Made by a program: the position numbers and the translations under genes. Shown here in pieces: positions 6,226 to 33,777 of a DNA stretch of 34,940 bases. Position 1 is the first letter of the stretch. Every line of letters begins with the position of its first letter. Source of the DNA: Actinomycetota bacterium (GTDB lineage Bacteria > Actinomycetota > Thermoleophilia > Gaiellales > Gaiellaceae); NCBI GenBank assembly GCA_005885245.1, contig VAWR01000002.1:1-34940 (forward strand), read 5' to 3'. The notes under the pieces are model-generated. The model was not told the origin of the DNA. It worked only from the letters and a program-made list of their open reading frames with translations, and searched no databases.

Positions 6226-7740
6226 GTGCTCGACCTCGGCGGTCAGTACGCACAGCTGATCGCGCGGCGCGTTCGCGACTGCCGCGTGTACTCGGAGCTC
6301 GTCGGCCACGGTGTCACTGCATCGCAGGTGCTTGCGCGTAACCCGCACGCGTTGATCCTCAGCGGTGGCCCGGCCTCCGTGTACGCCGAGGACGCTCCCC
6401 GGGTCGATCCTGGTCTCTTCGAGCTCGGCATTCCGACGCTCGGGATCTGCTACGGCGCGCAGCTGCTCGCCCTGGATCTCGGCGGCACCGTCGAGCGCAC
6501 CGGCGTCTCGGAGTTCGGAAAGACCGACTTGACCGCGTCGGAGTCCGCGCTCTTCGCCGGACTCCCCGAGGAGCAGACGGTCTGGATGTCGCACCGCGAC
6601 ACCGTGACCGCTCCGCCGGCCGGCGCTCAGGTCGTCGCCGCGTCTCCGTCGACTCCAGTGGCCGCCTTCGAGGATCCGGAGCATCACCTGTACGGCGTGC
6701 AGTTCCATCCGGAGGTCGTGCACACGCCGCACGGCAACGATCTCCTGAAGAACTTCCTCTACAACGTCGCGGGCGCGCCGCCTGCGTGGACGCCGGCTGC
6801 GGTGATCGAGGAACAGGTCGAACGAATTCGCGCCGCGGTCGGGCGCGAGCGCGTGCTCTGCGCGCTATCGGGCGGGGTCGACTCGGCGGTCGCCGCGCTC
6901 CTCGTGCACAAGGCGGTCGGCGACCAGCTCACATGTGTGTTCGTCGACCACGGCTTGCTGCGCGAGAACGAAGCCGAGCAGGTCGTCGAGACCTTCGGCG
7001 GACACTTCCGCGTCCCGCTCGTCCATGTGCAAGCTCAGGATCGTTTTCTCTCACGGCTCGAGGGTGTCGAGGATCCCGAGGAAAAGCGCAAGGTCGTCGG
7101 CGAGGAGTTCATCCGCGTCTTCGAAGAAGAAGCTGGCAAGCTCGGGAACATCCGCTTCCTGGTTCAGGGAACGCTCTACTCCGACGTGATCGAGTCGGGC
7201 GGCGACGAGGAGGTCGCGGCGAAGATCAAGTCCCACCACAACGTCGGTGGACTGCCGGCAGACATGACCATGCGGCTCGTCGAGCCGCTTCGCCTGCTGT
7301 TCAAGGACGAGGTGCGGCGTGTCGGCGAGGAGCTCGGCATGCCGGAGCGGATGGTGTGGCGACAACCCTTCCCGGGCCCCGGACTCGCGATTCGCATCAT
7401 CGGCGCCGTCACCGCCGAACGGCTCGCGATCCTGCGCTCCGCCGATGCCATCCTGCAGGACGAGATCCGCCGCGCCGGTCTCTATCGCGACCTGTGGCAA
7501 TCCTTTGCAGTGCTGCCTGCCATCCGTTCCGTGGGTGTGCAGGGGGACGAGCGGACCTACGCCTACCCGATCGTCATCCGCGCGGTGACCTCGGAGGATG
7601 CGATGACCGCGGACTGGGCTCGGCTTCCCTACGACCTGCTCGAGACGATCTCGAGCCGGATCATCAACGAGATCCCCGGCGTCAACCGCGTCGCGCTGGA
7701 TCTCAGCTCGAAGCCACCCGCGACGATCGAGTGGGAATAA
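6226..7740 (+). CDS. guaA: GMP synthase (glutamine-hydrolysing)
   Basis: GuaA aminates XMP to GMP using glutamine and ATP. The N-terminal class I amidotransferase has the nucleophile in LGICYGAQ (Cys75 from this start) and the His-Glu pair in FHPEVVH. The ATP-pyrophosphatase domain has the P-loop [13 protein letters not shown], and the dimerisation domain ends in the family-typical [11 protein letters not shown]. The GTG at 6226 is the first canonical start in frame, but it removes the opening strand PVLVLD that normally precedes the LGGQ motif. Codons upstream are open back to 6150 without ATG, GTG or TTG. A CTG at 6184 or 6190, just after the guaB stop, would give 518 or 516 residues, close to the usual size. 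GGAGGAG lies at 6207-6213. The function is certain; the start is not. Confidence 0.95.
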
Positions 7741-7775: not shown

Positions 7776-7866
7776 CGGACCGGTGGAGGGGGTCTGGGGG
7801 AACCGGGAGACGCGTAGCGTCCGTCCGCGAAGCGGACCAGTGGAGGGGATCTGGGGGAACCGGGAG
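7776..7866 (+). repeat. 34-bp direct repeat, two copies
   Basis: The segment at 7776-7809 recurs at 7833-7866 with 32 of 34 bases identical by hand count. Both copies begin CGGACC and end CTGGGGGAACCGGGAG. The spacer between them holds another small hairpin (GTCCGCGAAGCGGAC). The second copy runs into the palindrome and tandem array that follow. Confidence 0.8.
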
Positions 7867-7876
7867 GTTCCCCCAG
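7851..7876. repeat. palindromic element CTGGGGGAACC-GGGA-GGTTCCCCCAG
   Basis: A perfect 11-bp inverted repeat has a GGGA loop. Read on the other strand the loop is TCCC, which matches the palindrome at 33721-33744. The two are therefore members of one family of small GC-rich palindromes in this genome. Confidence 0.7.
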
Positions 7877-7985
7877 GGGCGAGCCCGGGAGGTTCCCCCA
7901 GGGGCGAGCCCGCGAGGTTCCCCCAGGGGCGAGCCCGGGAGGTTCCCCCAGGGGCGAGCCCGGGAGGTTCCCCCAGGGGGAGCCC
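7861..7985. repeat. five tandem 25-bp units
   Basis: Five head-to-tail 25-bp units start at 7861, 7886, 7911, 7936 and 7961. The core of each is GGTTCCCCCAGGGGCGAGCC. Unit 3 has one change in its first bases and unit 5 has lost the CGA register at its end. Each unit carries one arm of the palindrome at 7851-7876. The array ends 5 bp before the acylphosphatase stop codon. No protein is predicted here: the stretch between guaA and the acylphosphatase (7741-7989) appears wholly repetitive. Confidence 0.85.
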
Positions 7986-7989
7986 GCAT

Positions 7990-8256
7990 CTACCGGACAC
8001 TGAAGCCAGCGAGGCCCTCCGGCTCCTCATCGCTCACCTCGACCGACTCGACGCGAGCTCCACGTGGGCCTCGGCGGGCGAAGGCGACGAGGCGTTCGAC
8101 GGCGTCCTCGTCGCCTTCGAACACCGCCTCCACTGTCCCGTCGCGACGGTTGGACACCCACCCGGAAACGTGGTGCTGCTGCGCGAGCCGCCGCATCGAG
8201 TCGCGGAAGAACACGCCCTGGACCTGACCGTGGACGATGACGCGGCGACGGATCAC
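7990..8256 (-). CDS. acylphosphatase
   Basis: This small cytosolic enzyme hydrolyses carboxyl-phosphate bonds. The 88-residue length is that of the family. The signature VIVHGQVQGVFFRDS contains the phosphate-binding loop and catalytic Arg, and GWVSNRRDGTVEAVFEG contains the catalytic Asn. The start is taken as GTG at 8256 (VIRRRVIVHG), since extending further adds nothing conserved. It is divergent from the nitroreductase with only 18 bp between start codons, so both promoters must overlap. On this strand GAATAT lies 5 nt before the GTG and partly overlaps the opposing -10 box. Its 3' end abuts the tandem repeats. Confidence 0.88.
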   Translation of the reverse strand: MIRRRVIVHGQVQGVFFRDSMRRLAQQHHVSGWVSNRRDGTVEAVFEGDEDAVERLVAFARRGPRGARVESVEVSDEEPEGLAGFSVR

Positions 8257-8262
8257 CGGGCA

Positions 8263-8268
8263 TATTCT
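8263..8268 (+). promoter_or_regulatory. -10 hexamer for the leaderless nitroreductase gene
   Basis: TATTCT ends exactly 6 nt before the GTG at 8275. The reverse strand of the same bases reads AGAATA, continuing to AGAATATG, a plausible -10 for the divergent acylphosphatase. The two promoters therefore share this AT-rich patch in an otherwise GC-rich region. Confidence 0.5.
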
Positions 8269-8274
8269 CGCGCG

Positions 8275-8892
8275 GTGGATTTCAAGGACACCCTGCGGCG
8301 GCGGCGCATGGTACGAGCGTACGAGCCCGAGCCTATCCCGCGCGCCGCGATCGAGCGGATCGTCGGAACGGTCCGGCGCGCCCCCAGCGCCGGCTTCAGC
8401 CAGGGCCAGCGGCTGCTCGTCATCACGGAGGCGGAGACACGGAGGCGGATCGCGCAGCTGCTCGAGGAGAACAATCCCATGCGCGGGCGTGCTCCGAAGA
8501 ACGACCGGTGGATCACGGCCGCTCCAGTCCTGATCGTCGTCGGCGTTCGGGAAGACGACTACCACGATCGGTACCGGAAGCCTGACAAGTTGATCGACGG
8601 CCGCGAGCTCGACTGGCCGATCCCGTATTGGCATTTCGACGCCGGTGCCGCGGCGATGCTGCTCCTGCTGGGTGCGATCGACGAGGGCTATGCCGCCGGG
8701 GTCTTCGGAGTGTTCATGGAGGCGATCGAGCCGTTCAAGAGCTTGCTCGCGATCCCGGACGACGTCGATGTCGCGTGTTGCATCACGATCGGCAAGCCTG
8801 CGGACGACTCGAACTGGAGCGCAACCTCGAGCCGGCTGACGCAGGCGCGTCGCTCGGTGGACGACCTCGTCCGCTGGGAACACTGGAGTTAG
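8275..8892 (+). CDS. nitroreductase-family FMN oxidoreductase
   Basis: The 205-residue protein belongs to the nitroreductase/FMN-dependent oxidoreductase superfamily. The family opening FKDTLRRRRMVRAYEPEPIP is followed by RAPSAGFSQGQ (FMN phosphate contacts). The middle has the HFDAGAAAMLLLLGAIDEGYAAG helix and the C-terminal half has IPDDVDVACCITIGKPADD. Members reduce nitro compounds, quinones or flavin-linked substrates as dimers; the substrate here cannot be told. The GTG at 8275 is chosen because of the -10 box 6 nt upstream and the match to the family N-terminus. It ends 4 bp before a repeat element that separates it from the convergent sialidase-like gene. Confidence 0.85.
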   Translation: MDFKDTLRRRRMVRAYEPEPIPRAAIERIVGTVRRAPSAGFSQGQRLLVITEAETRRRIAQLLEENNPMRGRAPKNDRWITAAPVLIVVGVREDDYHDRYRKPDKLIDGRELDWPIPYWHFDAGAAAMLLLLGAIDEGYAAGVFGVFMEAIEPFKSLLAIPDDVDVACCITIGKPADDSNWSATSSRLTQARRSVDDLVRWEHWS

Positions 8893-8896
8893 ATCT

Positions 8897-9058
8897 GTGC
8901 TCCTGCCAGTAATGCCGCCGAGTTTCTGGGTCGCGAGCACCAAGCCAGAGGCCGCACTCGACCGAAGCAAGGCTGGTCAGCCTTGCTGAGGGCGAGGGTG
9001 GGCTCTGGCGCCGCGTGATCGCGGGCCAGAAGCCGGCATGTATTGCTGGAAGGGGCAC
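8897..9058 (-). repeat. 162-bp terminal-inverted-repeat element, copy A
   Basis: Read on the minus strand, it starts GTGCCCCTTCCAGCAATAC and its other end, reversed, reads GTGCTCCTGCCAGTAATGC (15 of 19 matching), which are clear terminal inverted repeats. In the centre, AGCAAGGCTG and CAGCCTTGCT (8966-8987) form a perfect 10-bp palindrome with a 2-bp spacer. It is 136/162 identical by hand count to the copy at 18579-18740. The first G of the element is the last base of the TAG stop of the sialidase-like gene, and the other end is 4 bp from the nitroreductase stop. It thus sits exactly between two convergent genes and could terminate both. Confidence 0.8.
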
Positions 9059-10797
9059 TATGGCGTCCGAACCTTCGATACCAGCTGTTGCTGGTGGAAG
9101 CCCGGATTCTCCCCCCCGGCATTGAAGGTCTCGACCGAGGCGGTGTAGGTAAAGCCGCCCCGTGAGTCGATCCCGAAGTAGTCGCCGATGAAGCTCGCGG
9201 AATTGCAGATGCAAGCGAACCGCGGAGAGGAGAGCTGCGGATCCCAGCTGTGCCCGGAGAGGCGGATGTTGTGACCGACCGGACGCAGCCTGGGGCGATA
9301 GAACTGGATTGCCGTGTCGATGCAGTAATTCGCGCGGCCGTACGGCGCCTGCGGATCGAAGACGAGTCCCGCCACAGTGGCCTCGAGTGTGTCTCGAACC
9401 GGACAGGCAAGCCGCCGGTCGTAGAAGGCGACCGCGACCGTCCCGTTGGGAGCGACGGCGAGATTGGGTTGCAGCGCATCGGTCTGCCCGTCGCCGTCGT
9501 TCACCTGGATCGCGCGCCCCCAGTGGCGGCCCCCGTCGTAGGAGGCACGCATGAAGATCGCTGTGTTGCCCGCCACCGCGTTCTCGTAGGCGACGTAGAG
9601 GGGATAGAAGCGTCCAACCTTGCGCGGGCCGACGATGAAGGCCTCGCCGAAGGCCGCCCGGAACGTCGTGTTCGCGTAGCCGTTCACCTGGTGGCGTACG
9701 ATCACGCGCCGCCGCGCCCAGGTGCGCCCGCCGCTCTTGGACGAGGTCAGCCACATGGTGAACGGTCCGTTCGATGGGCCGAAGCTCGACGTTGCGAGCC
9801 AGACTCGTCCGTCCGGGGCGACGCGCGGCAGCGAGCCGTTGTCGCCGATGCCGGCCGCATGCCCTAGGACCAGCCGCGGCCTCGACCAGTTGGCATGGGT
9901 GCCGTTGCGACGCGCCTGCGCGTAGGAGGTGTAGATCCGCAGGCTGAGGTCCGAGTTGCCGATCGCCCAGGAAACGTACACACGGCCGAAGTGCGCGCTG
10001 CGCGGGTTGGTGTCGATCGCGATCCACTGCTTGTCGAAGACCGAGGCGCCGTTGAACGGTGTGCTCGCGACCAGGTCGACACGCCCGCCGTGGACGACGT
10101 TCCACGCGTCTGCGGTCGCCGCGCCCCTTGGCCGGACCGCGATCCCGATTCCGGATCGCGGCAGTGTCGGATTGATGCTGCTCGAGACAAAGCCGTGCTG
10201 CCCATCTGGGGCATACGAGAACATGTACGGGAGCACGACGACGTAGAAATTGCCCCAGGGATCAAATGCGCCCGCAGGATCGGAGTTGTCGGTCCAGCCT
10301 TCGTAGCCGGGAACATGGCCGACCTGCGGCCAGGTGGCGCCACCGTCGAAGGACTCGAAGAAGCCGGCGAGATGGTTGTAGCCCTCGGCGTTCACGATCC
10401 ACTTGCTCACGCCGATCAGATGCCGTGCGTCGGCCGGGTCGACGTGGAGGTCCGACTCGGAGAAATCCTTCGCACGCAACGCCGGGTTGGTCACGTCCTG
10501 TGTCGCGTACGGGCCGATGTTCTCGCCTGTGGTCGCCGCGCCGGCGCACGGGATGGAGCCACCGTCCGGATACCCCTGACCGGGCAGGAGACTGCCCTGG
10601 TAGCTCACCTCCGGGGCATAACAGCTGACGCGTTGTGTGGTCGCGGTGACGCTCGTCACGCCACGTTGCGTGTAGCTCGCCGCAAACGCCGCGTCCGACT
10701 GGGAGCCTTGCGGCGGCGCTGCGTGCGCGACCGGAACGCAGACCCCCCCGCAGGCCGCGACGACCGCGGCGATGCGTCCTCTCACGGACATGAGCAT
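9058..10797 (-). CDS. secreted Asp-box (BNR/sialidase-like) beta-propeller protein
   Basis: This is a 579-residue exported protein. The N-terminus has a signal peptide (about 1-26, ending VAHA). Asp-box turns typical of sialidase-type propellers recur: SFDGGATW, SKSGGRTW and SYDGGRHW. I do not see the full catalytic set of a true sialidase (an Arg triad with FRIP), so it is better called Asp-box protein than sialidase. Phrases such as SESDLHVDPADARHLIGVSKW and SSFIGDYFGID-like SFIGDYFGID occur in poorly characterised secreted propellers. The ATG at 10797 or the one at 10791 both keep the signal peptide. It is divergent from the UDG-like gene by 9 bp and its stop is followed at once by a repeat element. 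Substrate unknown. Confidence 0.75.
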   Translation of the reverse strand: MLMSVRGRIAAVVAACGGVCVPVAHAAPPQGSQSDAAFAASYTQRGVTSVTATTQRVSCYAPEVSYQGSLLPGQGYPDGGSIPCAGAATTGENIGPYATQDVTNPALRAKDFSESDLHVDPADARHLIGVSKWIVNAEGYNHLAGFFESFDGGATWPQVGHVPGYEGWTDNSDPAGAFDPWGNFYVVVLPYMFSYAPDGQHGFVSSSINPTLPRSGIGIAVRPRGAATADAWNVVHGGRVDLVASTPFNGASVFDKQWIAIDTNPRSAHFGRVYVSWAIGNSDLSLRIYTSYAQARRNGTHANWSRPRLVLGHAAGIGDNGSLPRVAPDGRVWLATSSFGPSNGPFTMWLTSSKSGGRTWARRRVIVRHQVNGYANTTFRAAFGEAFIVGPRKVGRFYPLYVAYENAVAGNTAIFMRASYDGGRHWGRAIQVNDGDGQTDALQPNLAVAPNGTVAVAFYDRRLACPVRDTLEATVAGLVFDPQAPYGRANYCIDTAIQFYRPRLRPVGHNIRLSGHSWDPQLSSPRFACICNSASFIGDYFGIDSRGGFTYTASVETFNAGGENPGFHQQQLVSKVRTP

Positions 10798-10800
10798 AGT
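10795..10800 (+). promoter_or_regulatory. -10-like hexamer for the UDG-like gene
   Basis: CATAGT ends 6 nt before the GTG at 10807, the same spacing as the pyrF, guaB, nitroreductase and fabI cases. It lacks the first T of the consensus, so it is the weakest of the five. It overlaps the first codon of the divergent gene. Confidence 0.35.
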
Positions 10801-10806
10801 GACGCT

Positions 10807-11394
10807 GTGAATACGGAAAGGTTCGTGGCGCGACTCGCTTCGGCGCGGATCGGAGCGACGTTCAACTTCTACCGCGACGGCGAAGGGGCCGACGAACGCC
10901 GCCGCCGTTTGCGCGAGTACCTCGAAGAACGTGCTCGCGCCACCCTGCTCCTCGTCGGCGAAGCCGCCGGGTATCGCGGGGCGCGCGTCTCCGGAATTCC
11001 GTTCACCTCCGAACGCCAGCTCAGCGGGACCGGTCCAGCCGAGGCAACGGCGACGATTGTGCAGCGCGTCCTGCAGGAGCTCGAGCTCGAGGCCCTGTGT
11101 TGGAACGTGGTGCCGACCCACCCTGGCACCGAGACCTCGAACCGAGCACCGACGAAAGGGGAGGTGGCGGCCTCGCGGCCTTTTCTGGAGGAGCTGGCCG
11201 AGGGACGCCGTCTCATCGCCGTGGGCCGGCTTGCCGAGCGGGTTACGGGGGCACCTTACGTCCGCCATCCAGCCCATGGAGGCGGGGCCGAATTCAGGGC
11301 CGGGCTGCTAGCATTCGCCGCCGGCGGACGCCCTAGTCCGCTTTTTGTGCGCCCAAGCCAGGCTGAAGCCTGGCACGGGAGAAAAGTGAAATGA
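10807..11394 (+). CDS. uracil-DNA-glycosylase-superfamily protein
   Basis: The 195-residue protein resembles bacterial UDG-superfamily members. [23 protein letters not shown] (about residues 48-70) fits motif A of the superfamily, which positions the catalytic water or Asp. WNVVPTHP (about 98-105) fits the uracil-binding Asn region, and [16 protein letters not shown] (about 158-173) fits the motif B His loop. The expected role is excision of uracil or a damaged base from DNA, but substrate preference cannot be read from sequence. The last 25 or so residues lie beyond motif B and are encoded by what looks like the rplM promoter and leader, so this tail is probably unconserved. Its TGA overlaps the rplM ATG (ATGA). 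Confidence 0.7.
11306..11314 (+). promoter_or_regulatory. extended -10 promoter of the rplM-rpsI operon
   Basis: TGC TAGCAT is an extended -10 inside the 3' end of the UDG-like gene. The surrounding GGCTGCTAGCATT is nearly the same as the guaB promoter GGCTGCTAGCGTT. It would give a leader of about 70 nt containing a GCCGCCGGCGG stretch and the hairpin at 11357-11374. Confidence 0.45.
11357..11374 (+). promoter_or_regulatory. leader hairpin before rplM
   Basis: GCCAGGCT and AGCCTGGC pair perfectly around GA (the real loop would be 4-6 nt). It ends 16 nt before the rplM start, just ahead of the Shine-Dalgarno-like GGGAGAAAA. L13 operons in other bacteria are autoregulated through the leader, so a similar role is possible, but no specific leader family was recognised. 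Confidence 0.4.
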
Positions 11395-16841: not shown

Positions 16842-17252
16842 TCAGTCTTCGGGCTCTCGCCGGAGTCGTTTCGTCCGCGACCGGCGTCGCTTCTCGTCGA
16901 GACGACGCTCGCGGGCCGCCGCGGTGGGCTTCGTGGGGACTCTGCGCCGCTCGACCTTCAGCGCCTGCCGGAGCTGCTCCACCAAGCGCTCCACTGCCAG
17001 CTCTCGGTTTCGGGCCTGACTGCGCTCGTCCTGGGCGACCGCGCGCAGCACCGGACCCGAGCGCGCGACGACCCGCCGCTTCTGCGTCTCCGTGAGCGCC
17101 GTCGACGATTCGACGTCGAAGACAGCCTCCACCCGCGTCTCGGACTTCTGGGCATGTTGACCGCCGGGGCCGCTCGAGCGAGAGAACCTGAGCTCGATCT
17201 CCGCGGCGGGCAGAACGACAGAACGCGTTACCCGAATAGACTCGCCGTCCAT
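16842..17252 (-). CDS. arfB: ArfB-like alternative peptidyl-tRNA hydrolase
   Basis: The 136-residue protein carries the GGQ motif of class I release factors in FSRSSGPGGQHAQKSETRVE (about residues 25-44). It lacks a codon-recognition domain and ends in a long Lys/Arg-rich tail (RRLDEKRRRSRTKRLRREPED). This is the plan of ArfB/YaeJ, which enters the empty mRNA channel of stalled ribosomes with its basic tail and hydrolyses the peptidyl-tRNA. The ATG at 17252 gives the standard N-terminus. That ATG overlaps the ATG of the divergent HAD gene: the four bases CATG at 17250-17253 carry both start codons. CAGAAT 7 nt upstream on this strand is a possible -10 inside the HAD gene. Confidence 0.88.
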   Translation of the reverse strand: MDGESIRVTRSVVLPAAEIELRFSRSSGPGGQHAQKSETRVEAVFDVESSTALTETQKRRVVARSGPVLRAVAQDERSQARNRELAVERLVEQLRQALKVERRRVPTKPTAAARERRLDEKRRRSRTKRLRREPED

Positions 17253-18027
17253 GGCAGCGATTCTGCTTGACGTCGACGGTGTCTTCCACGTCTCGAGCGA
17301 ACCGATCGGGGGAGGCGCCGACGCCGTCCGGCGTCTTCGAGCAGCGGGGCATCGCCTGCGCTTCGTCACGAACAACACGATCAGAGCGCGATCCGCGCTG
17401 GCCGAGGAGCTGAGGTCGATGGGTATCGAGCTCGACGACGAGGAGCTACAGACGACTCCACGAGCAGCGGCCGCGGCTCTCGCCGGACGACGTGTCCTCG
17501 CGCTCACGATGCACGCGATCGTGGGTGAGCTCGAGGGCATCGAGTTGGTGGGCGAAGACGCCGAGGCAGTGCTCGTCGGCGGTGCGGACGAGACCCCCGA
17601 GACGAACCTCGTCTTCAGCTACATGAACCTGGCGCGGGCGTTCCACGAGCTCGAGGGGGGCGCGCAGCTCTACTGCTTGCACAAGAACCGCTGGTGGCAG
17701 ACGAAGCACGGGCCACTCCTCGACGCCGGCGCCTTCGTCGCCGGACTCGAGTACGCGGCCGACGTCGAGGCGATCGTGCTCGGCAAGCCCTCGACCGCCT
17801 ACTTCGAAGCTGCTCTCCAGGCGCTCGACGCCGATCCCGGCCTGACCTGGATGGTCGGTGACGACATCGACGCGGACATCGGCGGCGCGCAGAGCCACGG
17901 GATGAAGACCGTGCTGGTGCGAACGGGCAAGTTCCGTCCGGACGCCGTGGAGGCGGGTCGGGTCCGACCGGACGGAATCATCTCGTCGATCGCGCAACTT
18001 CCGGACTGGCTCGAGGAGCACTTGTGA
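17251..18027 (+). CDS. HAD-superfamily (class IIA) phosphatase
   Basis: The 258-residue protein is a haloacid-dehalogenase-fold phosphatase of the NagD/HDHD2/LHPP branch. It opens MAAILLDVDGVFHVS with nucleophile Asp7 and acid-base Asp9. Motif II is FVTNNTIR, the motif III Lys is in VLGKPSTAYFEAAL, and motif IV is MVGDDIDADIGGAQSHGM. The class IIA cap lies between motifs II and III. Possible substrates include sugar, nucleotide or phospholysine phosphates; none can be assigned. The ATG at 17251 shares CATG with the divergent arfB start. TAGACT lies 8 nt upstream as a possible -10. A repeat element starts 4 bp after the stop. Confidence 0.85.
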   Translation: MAAILLDVDGVFHVSSEPIGGGADAVRRLRAAGHRLRFVTNNTIRARSALAEELRSMGIELDDEELQTTPRAAAAALAGRRVLALTMHAIVGELEGIELVGEDAEAVLVGGADETPETNLVFSYMNLARAFHELEGGAQLYCLHKNRWWQTKHGPLLDAGAFVAGLEYAADVEAIVLGKPSTAYFEAALQALDADPGLTWMVGDDIDADIGGAQSHGMKTVLVRTGKFRPDAVEAGRVRPDGIISSIAQLPDWLEEHL

Positions 18028-18031
18028 CAAG

Positions 18032-18211
18032 GTGACCCAACCGGCGACATTCGGCGGCGCCTGGCTCGCGATCACGCGGCGCGCTGCGGCGTCCTCAGTC
18101 GCGCCCGGGCTTGCTAGCCCGAGCGCTCACGTGAGCGCCGGAGGCGCGAGCGCCATTGCATCGCTTGGTGCTCGCGACCCAGGCATCCACCAATATCACC
18201 GGCTGGATCAC
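18032..18211 (+). repeat. 180-bp terminal-inverted-repeat element, divergent copy C
   Basis: The left end GTGACCCAACCGGCGACATT matches the reversed right end GTGATCCAGCCGGTGATATT; over 33 bp, 24 match by hand count. Its inner flanks share CGCGATCACGCGGCGC and CTTGGTGCTCGCGACCCA with copy A, but the centre is different and holds a 16-bp palindrome GCGCTCACGTGAGCGC. It fills the gap between the HAD stop and the acpS start (ATG 18214), so the acpS ribosome-binding region is supplied by the element's right end. Confidence 0.65.
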
Positions 18212-18213
18212 CT

Positions 18214-18579
18214 ATGACCGTCGGCGTCGACCTGATCGAGATCGAGCGCGTGAGGCGGGCGCTCGAGCGCTATCCGCGCTTCCGCGCGCGTTGCTTCACC
18301 GAGGCGGAGCGCGCCTACTGCGACTCGCGGCCGAACCCGGCTCAGAGCTACGCCGGGAGGTTCGCCGGCAAGGAGGCGGTCGGCAAGGCACTCGGGTTCG
18401 GCGTCGCCCGGGCATTCGCCTGGCGCGAGATCGAGATCGCCGGCCGTCCGAAGCCGTCCGTTCGTCTGAGCGGGCGGATGGCGGCGTGGGCAGAGCGGGT
18501 GGGTGCGGGTGCGATCGACCTGTCGATGACGCACTCGCGGGAGCTCGCCAACGCCGTCGCGGTCGTCGCGAAGGAATAG
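18214..18579 (+). CDS. acpS: holo-[acyl-carrier-protein] synthase
   Basis: AcpS transfers 4'-phosphopantetheine from CoA to apo-ACP, activating fatty acid synthesis. The 121-residue length is typical. TVGVDLIEIERV has the Mg-binding Asp, RFAGKEAVGKALGFG has the conserved Glu and Lys of the CoA and metal site, and the C-terminus has SMTHSRELANAVAVV. The ATG at 18214 lies 2 bp after repeat copy C. The G of its TAG stop is the first base of repeat copy B. Its place before nnr and alr matches the usual actinobacterial order. Confidence 0.93.
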   Translation: MTVGVDLIEIERVRRALERYPRFRARCFTEAERAYCDSRPNPAQSYAGRFAGKEAVGKALGFGVARAFAWREIEIAGRPKPSVRLSGRMAAWAERVGAGAIDLSMTHSRELANAVAVVAKE

Positions 18580-18740
18580 TGCCCCTCCAGGCAATGTCCT
18601 CCGGCTTCTGGCCTGCGATCGCTCGGCGTCGGAGTCCACCCTCGCCCTTAGCAAGGCTGACCAGCCTTGCTGCGGTCGAGTGCGGCCTCTGGCTTTGTGC
18701 TCGCGACCCAGAAACTCGGCAACATCGCCTGCAGGGACAG
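18579..18740 (+). repeat. 162-bp terminal-inverted-repeat element, copy B
   Basis: This copy has the same length as copy A (8897-9058) and 136/162 identity by hand count. The ends GTGCCCCTCCAGGCAATGT and, reversed, CTGTCCCTGCAGGCGATGT match at about 15 of 20 bases. The perfect central palindrome is at 18650-18671. It starts with the G of the acpS TAG and ends 2 bp before the nnr ATG, so it is the whole spacer, and its end GCAGGGACAG supplies the only Shine-Dalgarno-like sequence for nnr. Confidence 0.8.
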
Positions 18741-18742
18741 TG

Positions 18743-20062
18743 ATGTTCCAGCCGCTCTACACGGCGGAGGAGATGCGCACCGCCGAGCAGGGCCACGATG
18801 TCCAAGCGCTGATGGAGCGGGCGGGCCGTGCGGTCGCCGAGGCCGTCGTGCGCCGCTACCCCGACGCCCGCCGCATCGCGGGCGTCTGCGGAAAGGGAGC
18901 GAACGGCGGCGACGGCCGCATTGCGCTGCGGCTTCTCGGCGAGGCCGGCCGTGAGACGACCGAGGAGCTGGACGGCGACGTCGACCTCGTCGTCGACGCG
19001 CTGTTCGGAACGGGCTTCCATGGCGAGCCGCGTCCAGAGGCGGCGGCGCTGATCGAGCGGATCAATGCAGCGGGCGCGCCGATCGTCGCGGTCGACCTTC
19101 CCTCCGGCGTGAATGCCTCGAGCGGCGAGGTCGCGGGCGCCGCCGTGCGCGCAGACGTGACGGTGACGATGCACGGCCCGAAGGTCGGCTTGCTGGTCGC
19201 CCCTGGGCGCTTCCTGGCCGGGGAGATCGAGGTCGCGGACATCGGCCTGGCGCCCGCCCAGACGGAGCACCGCCTCGTCACCGAGGAGATCCTCGGACTC
19301 GTTCCCCGCCGACACGAGGGAGACACGAAGTACACCGCGGGCTCCGTCCTGGTCGTGGGCGGTTCGCCGGGGTTGACCGGGGCGGCGTGCCTCGCGGCCG
19401 AGGCTGCGTTTCGCTCGGACGCCGGCTACGTCGCGGTCTGCGTTCCCGAGGCGTCCCTGCCGGTCCTGGAGACGCTGCTGGTCGAAGCGGTGAAGGCCCC
19501 GCGCGAGCGGATCGACGAGCTCGCCGACCGTGCGTCGTCCCTCGCCGTCGGACCGGGGCTCGGGCGGGCGGCTGAAGAGCGTGCCCTGGTACGCCGGCTG
19601 CTCGCGGAGCGCGACCTACCGGCGGTCGTCGATGCAGATGCTCTGTACGAGCTGGAGCCGGCCCGCTGGCCAGCGCCGCGCGTGCTCACTCCGCACTCCG
19701 GAGAGCTTGCGCGGCTGCTCGGCGAGGACTCGAAGTGGGTGGACGCGCACCGACTCGACGCGCTGCGCCAGGCGGTCGACCGCTTTGCCTGCATCGTCTT
19801 GCTGAAGGGGCCAGACACGCTGGTCGGCGCGCCAGGACACGGGGTGCTCGTCTGCAGCTCCGGCACGTCGGCGCTCGCCACTGCCGGCACCGGCGACGTG
19901 CTGACCGGTGTGATCGCATCCTTCTTGGCCAAGGGCATGGAGGCGCGCCTTGCCGCCGCAGCGGGCGCCGTTGCACACGGCCGAGCGGCACAGCTCGCCC
20001 CACACCAGGTCGGGCTCGTTGCTTCGGACGTCATCGATTCCCTGCCGCTCGCGCTCGCCTGA
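18743..20062 (+). CDS. nnr: bifunctional NAD(P)H-hydrate epimerase / ADP-dependent dehydratase
   Basis: This cofactor-repair enzyme epimerises damaged NAD(P)HX and dehydrates it back to NAD(P)H. The 439-residue fusion has an N-terminal YjeF_N domain (about 1-200: CGKGANGGDGRIALRLL, DALFGTGFHGEPRPEA, VDLPSGVNASSGEV). The C-terminal ribokinase-like dehydratase covers about 200-439 (HEGDTKYTAGSVLVVGGSPG, VLTPHSGELARLLG, TAGTGDVLTGVIASFLA with the catalytic Asp). The epimerase half looks slightly compact between its nucleotide loop and the VDALFG strand. The ATG at 18743 follows the repeat directly. The stop TGA shares one base with the alr ATG (TGATG), so the two are coupled. Confidence 0.92.
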   Translation: MFQPLYTAEEMRTAEQGHDVQALMERAGRAVAEAVVRRYPDARRIAGVCGKGANGGDGRIALRLLGEAGRETTEELDGDVDLVVDALFGTGFHGEPRPEAAALIERINAAGAPIVAVDLPSGVNASSGEVAGAAVRADVTVTMHGPKVGLLVAPGRFLAGEIEVADIGLAPAQTEHRLVTEEILGLVPRRHEGDTKYTAGSVLVVGGSPGLTGAACLAAEAAFRSDAGYVAVCVPEASLPVLETLLVEAVKAPRERIDELADRASSLAVGPGLGRAAEERALVRRLLAERDLPAVVDADALYELEPARWPAPRVLTPHSGELARLLGEDSKWVDAHRLDALRQAVDRFACIVLLKGPDTLVGAPGHGVLVCSSGTSALATAGTGDVLTGVIASFLAKGMEARLAAAAGAVAHGRAAQLAPHQVGLVASDVIDSLPLALA

Positions 20063-33720: not shown

Positions 33721-33744
33721 CGGGGAAACCTCCCGGTTTCCCCG
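33721..33744. repeat. 10-bp palindrome CGGGGAAACC-TCCC-GGTTTCCCCG
   Basis: This is a perfect inverted repeat with a TCCC loop. The palindrome at 7851-7876 has the same loop on the opposite strand and one base difference in the core of each arm, so the two are related elements. It may also act as the terminator of the ybdK gene, which ends 34 bp away. Confidence 0.7.
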
Positions 33745-33777
33745 GAGCCCCTTCCCCCGCGACAGAGGTCGTCGTGA

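Follow-up and report, generated by a model that had tools for sequence, protein, structure and literature searches.

A 162-bp palindromic, MITE-like family of Gaiellales, frequently placed at stop/start junctions and folding better on one strand

TA-flanked palindromic MITEs located near genes are already known. Many bacteria carry short palindromic elements, whose mover and selected strand are mostly obscure. Only the folded bottom strand of integron attC sites recombines; the likeness of attC to the element described here is one of analogy only, and no cassettes were seen at the elements. For ERIC, we know of no mover. ERIC (127 bp) is comparable in being, according to the available parts of PMC2229807 and PMC10969869, a fixed-length imperfect palindrome with TA ends and target duplication, intergenic and cotranscribed, with an orientation-dependent effect on mRNA. 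Similar features are reported in the available text of PMC2229807 for Correia/NEMIS of Neisseria (approximately 107–155 bp, TA ends, long terminal repeats and a hairpin RNA) and for YPAL/RU-2 of Yersinia (approximately 168 bp), which is alike in size, palindromy and recent mobility as judged by empty sites. RUP of pneumococcus (107 bp) is also short, TA-flanked and provided with terminal repeats. The REP/REPIN sequences with their TnpA_REP (RAYT) proteins share strand-specific folded palindromes and conserved irregularities, as described in the part of PMC8266576 available.

The window, that is, the whole stretch of DNA analysed, comprises 34,940 nucleotides and derives from a 3.2-Mb draft genome that is 90.5% complete. 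The features relevant to the element are the following.

17251–18027, plus strand: HAD hydrolase (Pfam), with its TGA stop at 18025–18027, 4 bp before the 180-bp copy
18032–18211, plus strand: divergent 180-bp copy of the element at the HAD/acpS junction (covariance-model E 1.9e-20)
18214–18579, plus strand: acpS (PF01648, E 2.2e-18), start codon 2 nt past the 180-bp copy
18577–18579, plus strand: TAG stop of acpS, composed of the flanking TA and the first G of the element
18579–18740, plus strand: 162-bp element copy in body-plus orientation, located between acpS and nnr (covariance-model match on the minus strand, E 1.1e-27)
18732–18737, plus strand: CAGGGA, Shine-Dalgarno-like, at the right end of the element and upstream of nnr
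18743–20062, plus strand: nnr, NAD(P)H-hydrate dehydratase/YjeF (PF01256, E 1.3e-48), start codon 2 nt past the element
8897–9058, minus strand: element copy of 162 bp behind the sialidase-like gene (covariance-model E 4.2e-36)
9058–9060, minus strand: TAG stop of the sialidase-like gene, composed of the flanking TA and the first G of the element
9058–11277, minus strand: sialidase-like gene (BNR_2 match below the cut-off only)

A previous sequence-only reading of this DNA had described the two 162-bp copies, and its coordinates, lengths, 84% identity (84% over 169 nt on alignment), central palindrome (AGCAAGGCTGACCAGCCTTGCT, present in both) and stop-codon overlap were all correct, as was the identification of the first element base with the G of the TAG stop of acpS and of the sialidase-like ORF. 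The third copy, of 180 bp, was also confirmed 4 bp past the HAD stop; it carries the other outer and centre module type. Terminal repeats of about 19 bp had been proposed together with a separate central palindrome: the pairing in fact goes further, nearly the whole element being one long hairpin, and it is much better on the opposite strand. The better-folding strand of the copy at 18579–18740 is the minus strand. The copy at 8897–9058 lies where the sialidase-like gene and the gene at 7783–8892 converge. Other repeats are present in the window, namely a tandem array at 7860–7984 with a 25-bp unit, CCGGGAGGTTCCCCCAGGGGCGAGC, in four copies in register, and an inverted piece related to it, in which 7844–7874 pairs with 33722–33752.

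Further copies exist in the same genome, beyond what chance would give. The DNA search recovered eight close copies, including both of 162 bp, plus one secondary inverted match, and the covariance model 16 distinct copies at E ≤ 0.001; three centre-variant copies (L014, L026 and L030) are beyond the reach of the model. The 180-bp copy used as query retrieved a wider set of relatives, many of them partial. Copies are located between the ribosomal protein genes L24/L5 and S17/L14 (Pfam) and between rpsJ/rplC, atpF/atpH and atpH/atpA (neighbours read from translations, without a family search). At one locus between presumed atpH and atpA (L007; G000:C115, approximately 41006–41167) most of the left terminal repeat is missing and the atpH frame enters the element, so that either the 3' end of atpH may have been lost or the assembly is wrong.

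With strict filters, the covariance model had matches in 91 of the 129 genomes of this order; 88 of them belong to the family of the window and three to the sister family f2, and families f3 and f4 showed none. Under fuller scoring, matches appeared in four of the five f2 genomes, of which three were clear and one was close to the threshold. Ten matches (nine from f2, one from the family of the window) were 160–165 nt long and the matched strand folded better in all ten; the f2 elements have the same architecture as those of the family of the window. A pattern scan of named genomes gave 112 stretches; among the matches listed (80 of 112), most were from Actinobacteria/Thermoleophilia MAGs, two from ‘uncultured Gaiellaceae bacterium’, and chance matches appeared in unrelated bacteria. 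The carriers are nearly all Gaiellaceae-like soil MAGs, and the data are short-read MAGs. The DNA search of plasmids and phages gave no match to the window copy, and viral contigs a single exact motif match (L261), around which element borders were not found. Rfam gave no match at the gathering score in 17 sources, and two at E ≤ 1, far below their gathering scores.

For the anatomy of the element 131 unique copies were assembled, after dropping L130, L148, L198, L223, L245 and L257 as duplicate or spurious, one overlapping reading of L149, identical bodies, and 22 motif matches in which no element could be delimited. Borders were called by demanding a G at the start and a C at the end; TA flanks were not demanded. 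The length is 162 bp in 87 of the 131 copies and 163 bp in 13, most others being 158–186 bp; outliers are four copies of a 225-bp variant with an insertion and single copies of 212 and 231 bp. Eight mini-copies of 39–92 bp keep the ends. The 225-bp variant (L005, L006, L099 and L142) owes its extra length to a 63-bp insert that forms two small hairpins; its presence in the window's genome and in G009 suggests that the longer form has spread as well. The 162-nt unit reads (TA)GTG..CAC(TA), and its ends covary (GTACCCC..GGGGTAC, GCGCCCC..GGGGCGC). Twenty-nine diverged copies, which combine two types of outer module and two of inner module in novel ways, align without gaps in 162 columns; these 29, and the 28 used for pair counts, were picked from 41 representatives of the 87 copies of 162 bp. 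The family is short, lacks a transposase gene and has complementary terminal inverted repeats, as in MITEs generally.

The flanks of 13 sites were joined and ten congeners searched for the empty site. Twelve were empty, with 3–10 uninterrupted alignments per site (63 in total), and at the remaining one (L098) no spanning alignment was found in the ten congeners. The copies are insertions and the family is mobile. Across the 30 genomes read, the acpS/nnr junction is filled only in the window's genome and G009; in most others acpS and nnr share 1 to 8 bases or are at most 16 bases apart. At the HAD/acpS junction, congener G003 has only the ends of the element, a remnant that is an internal deletion product. 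In G026 (L086) a 121-nt acpS/nnr gap contains repeated GGTGTCAGACACC palindromes, and the element is absent.

Of 129 copies, 57 have TA on both sides; TA is on the left in 84 and on the right in 78, and the right flank is TG in 25. Since L129–L147 had been chosen with a TA-containing pattern, values are also given for an unbiased subset leaving out L129–L148: both flanks 44, left TA 70, right TA 64 and right TG 25, of 114. At L003 the order is TA, element, TA, and TAGTG is kept in three congeners, which fits a TA duplication. At L093, TACTA, element, TGATG is found against an empty TACTGATG in G001 and G008; the left TA and right TG leave target-site duplication unproven, and the site fits it only with a later change. 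More generally, TA predominates on the left also at TGATG junctions, for which a strict duplication of 2 bp predicts TG; either an original TG copy became TA because a stop was selected for (TGG to TAG), or TA is provided by the insertion mechanism itself. The idea of an element carrying TA at one end only was rejected on account of TA on the stop side of antisense copies. At L149 (approximately 6680–7010) two copies lie head to tail with TA alone between them, as if the TA flanking the first had served as target for the second. Copies L191, L239, L252 and L254 each interrupt a short TA-centred palindrome (e.g. GCTAGC) at its midpoint, these palindromes being perhaps other hairpins.

Gene contexts were obtained from third-position G+C reading rather than full gene calling. 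A TAG at −2, formed by TA and the first G of the element, was found in 74 of 124 ends with a gene running in. Under an even-use null, in which 16.6% of gene-sparing TA sites are stop codons (73 loci), p was 3e-27; this null is rough, as selection is outside the model and the simple gene finder used calls one-base overlaps rarely (4 of 284 codirectional pairs). The stop/start preference may arise from selection alone. On the other side, the next start codon is at +2 in 51 of 98 cases (49 of 89 in the unbiased set), and in 38 of these 49 the right flank is TAGTG (16), TGATG (13) or TAATG (9), that is, an intact stop sharing one base with the start codon; right-flank TG precedes ATG in 13 cases and GTG in one. 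These flanks are read here as relics of one-base stop/start overlaps. The proposal that the element end supplies a Shine-Dalgarno-like stretch was supported by computed duplex energies: the 20 nt before +2 starts, paired with an assumed anti-Shine-Dalgarno sequence, had a median of −7.7 kcal/mol (n = 51), against −3.7 kcal/mol for other genes (n = 497; p 1.6e-11).

At codirectional gene pairs 84 copies are sense and 22 antisense (p 1e-9; unbiased set 76 and 18), and in mixed classes 14 and 9. The statement that all copies are sense-oriented is thus valid as a bias and not as a rule. The suggestion of a terminator or 3'-end module was not sustained, as copies are found inside ribosomal-protein operons and mostly at codirectional junctions. 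By contrast, that of a MITE-like family kept at gene ends agrees with the terminal repeats, TA flanks, lineage-specific insertion and TAG borders.

Folding is strand-specific. The complementary (bottom) strand of body-plus was more stable in 87 of 87 copies, which share ancestry and are not 87 independent trials, with mean minimum energies of −118.4 (bottom) and −95.7 kcal/mol (top). The strand present in operon mRNA is mostly the weaker-folding one. Across the 87 copies, the outer stems show 126 A.C and 14 G.T cells on the body-plus strand, or 80 and 14 without column 18-145 (46 A.C cells); the 12 antisense-operon copies gave the same sign, 24 and 4. Each A.C on body-plus is a wobble pair on the complementary strand, and the idea that these conserved mismatches serve the mRNA was dropped for that reason. 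No A.C-producing mutation bias is visible in the unpaired columns (146 against 196). On the bottom strand, the consensus of 86 copies comprises 42 pairs, whose cells are 3067 Watson-Crick, 450 G.U, 18 A.C and 77 other; two U.G pairs are nearly invariant (14-149 in 81 and 35-128 in 84 of the 86 sequences). When all symmetric columns were counted in a cruder way, A.C and G.T cells numbered 142 and 112 (51 and 42 in 24 representatives), and the effect is not seen there. This discrepancy is attributed to the inner helix being out of register, because the register-corrected consensus has 450 wobble against 18 cells.

In 28 copies, 97.3% of the cells of the bottom outer helix (41 pairs) are paired, 27 of its pairs being changed on both sides, and 76.0% of those of the inner helix (25 pairs), where the module types differ in some pairs. 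In the whole bottom structure 43 pairs are changed on both sides; none of 500 shuffles was as high and slid controls reached at most 42.4%. The same structure read on the top strand (29 copies) is paired in 86.0% of outer and 75.3% of inner cells. Loci from the pattern scan fix the bases CTTGGTGCTCGCGACCCAG of the right arm, so that in those rows the pairs are invariable on that side.

Two explanations based on host mRNA have to be weighed against these data. The A.C excess could reflect selection against stable sense-strand hairpins in host mRNA, with palindromy needed at the DNA level only; A.C breaks pairing in the mRNA and G.U does not, and sense copies prevail. Nevertheless, other mismatches would be equally useful and are few in the outer stems (40, against 126 A.C), transitions make up only 342 of the 721 deviations in unpaired columns, and the two nearly invariant U.G pairs belong to the bottom strand, making this explanation improbable. 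Very unlikely is a host-functional intercistronic RNA (stabiliser, processing site or terminator) selected on host mRNA. The sense bias, operon location and compensatory changes would agree with it, and ERIC reportedly alters mRNA stability in an orientation-dependent manner (available text of PMC2229807), but the sites are empty in most congeners, the constrained strand is antisense in most operons and the asymmetry is alike in antisense copies.

The search for a mobilising enzyme covered an autonomous element, IS630-type and Y1 transposases. The facing terminal repeats listed for 37 genomes of draft quality, in which such an element may be lost, were judged to lie near each other, none being 0.3–5 kb apart, and an autonomous transposase with the same termini, which the sequence-only reading had proposed to look for, was not found. 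Two partial copies approximately 0.9 kb apart (L015/L016) were rejected as ends of a larger element: between them are two genes read as OsmC-like and no transposase. An ordinary MITE, mobilised in trans by an IS630/Tc1-mariner DDE transposase acting on double-stranded ends, with the hairpin as a by-product and the stop link due to TA targeting and survival, is possible but rather doubtful. It would account for the TA flanks, the symmetric ends and the mini-derivatives with perfect ends, and TA-flanked RUP is ascribed to IS630-Spn1 in the available text of PMC2229807. However, the IS630 domain PF13358 had no match in the window's genome (at its 90.5% completeness) and was present in only six of 41 genomes; IS630 copies were also rejected as parent, the loci seen lacking these ends and the only one with TA-flanked ends having a different terminal repeat. 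Double-stranded recognition would, in addition, be blind to A.C versus G.T, and the pairing constraint reaches the interior.

A REPIN-like family whose mover is a Y1/HUH transposase of the RAYT type, recognising a single folded strand, is considered decidedly unlikely, even though RAYTs bind one folded ssDNA strand (in the part of PMC8266576 available), matching the strand asymmetry, and Y1_Tnp genes occur in 28 of 41 genomes, the window's genome having six such genes. Among 32 stretches around Y1 genes, some overlapping, no element adjoined save one weak match (E 0.016), G018 and G019 have no Y1 match yet carry elements, no GTAG-tagged short REP units were observed among the elements, and TA is at both ends. 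Y1/RAYT was rejected as the mover on this lack of linkage, and the earlier designation as REP-like is not supported if taken in the strict RAYT sense. Several different Y1 (RAYT-like) genes in a small genome, one of them (L359) near a GGTGCCAGGCACC palindrome, may represent a separate REP system.

The explanation preferred here, with somewhat more confidence than doubt, is a non-autonomous MITE-like family of Gaiellales whose insertions at stop/start junctions are nearly harmless and which passes through a folded single-stranded stage recognised by a putative enzyme. Insertion would occur at a two-base target, usually TA, and the element begins with G; where the TA of a stop codon is hit, the upstream gene would again end in TAG. 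On the other side TA or TG would remain directly before the next start, the element end providing the Shine-Dalgarno-like stretch. With the stop restored and the start signals supplied, insertions at tight junctions would be nearly harmless and thus survive. The complement of the usual mRNA strand appears to be kept foldable as a near-continuous hairpin of approximately 162 nt; such a constraint, acting on the element itself, points to a folded single-stranded stage, as ssDNA or RNA, and to the putative enzyme. The orientation bias in operons would result from selection against the tightly folding strand in host mRNA. The mini-derivatives (39–92 bp, intact ends) could indicate that the ends alone suffice for movement.

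An RNA form of this stage, in which the element, a bacterial counterpart of SINEs or otherwise RNA-templated and fixed at 162 nt, spreads via a folded RNA copy of one strand, the RNA being the selected molecule and the ends restoring the stop and the ribosome-binding site, is regarded as unlikely. It would be compatible with the kept G-U pairs, kept length and exchanged modules and, if true, the restored signals would let the element live in essential operons.

Under the preferred MITE-like explanation, the family illustrates how a selfish element may gain access to core operons, those for ribosomal proteins among them: it uses the TA already present in the stop codon and re-creates both the stop and the ribosome-binding signal. 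A gap-free natural alignment shows a strand-specific pairing constraint, which makes the single-strand question testable by comparing the hairpin with its complement. In the literature searched (including the available parts of PMC10969869, PMC2229807, PMC2759123 and PMC8266576; preprints and most subscription journals being outside its scope) this family is undescribed, and neither exact stop completion by TA + G at one-base overlaps nor a wobble-based strand asymmetry was found; ‘Gaiellales’ and ‘miniature inverted-repeat’ do not co-occur within that scope.

Compared with the described systems, ERIC has another sequence and belongs to another phylum, and precise stop/start placement and strand-specific wobble conservation are not described for it in the available text. 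RUP has a candidate IS630 parent (available text of PMC2229807), and none was found for the Gaiellales element. REP units are 20–50 nt with a GTAG tag, in contrast to 162 nt with TA flanks and without Y1 linkage. YPAL/RU-2 is without TA ends and has duplications of variable length, 3–26 bp, according to the same available text of PMC2229807. In Correia/NEMIS, as described there, RNase III cuts the mRNA and the mRNA strand matters, whereas in the Gaiellales element the better-folding strand is mostly outside the mRNA.
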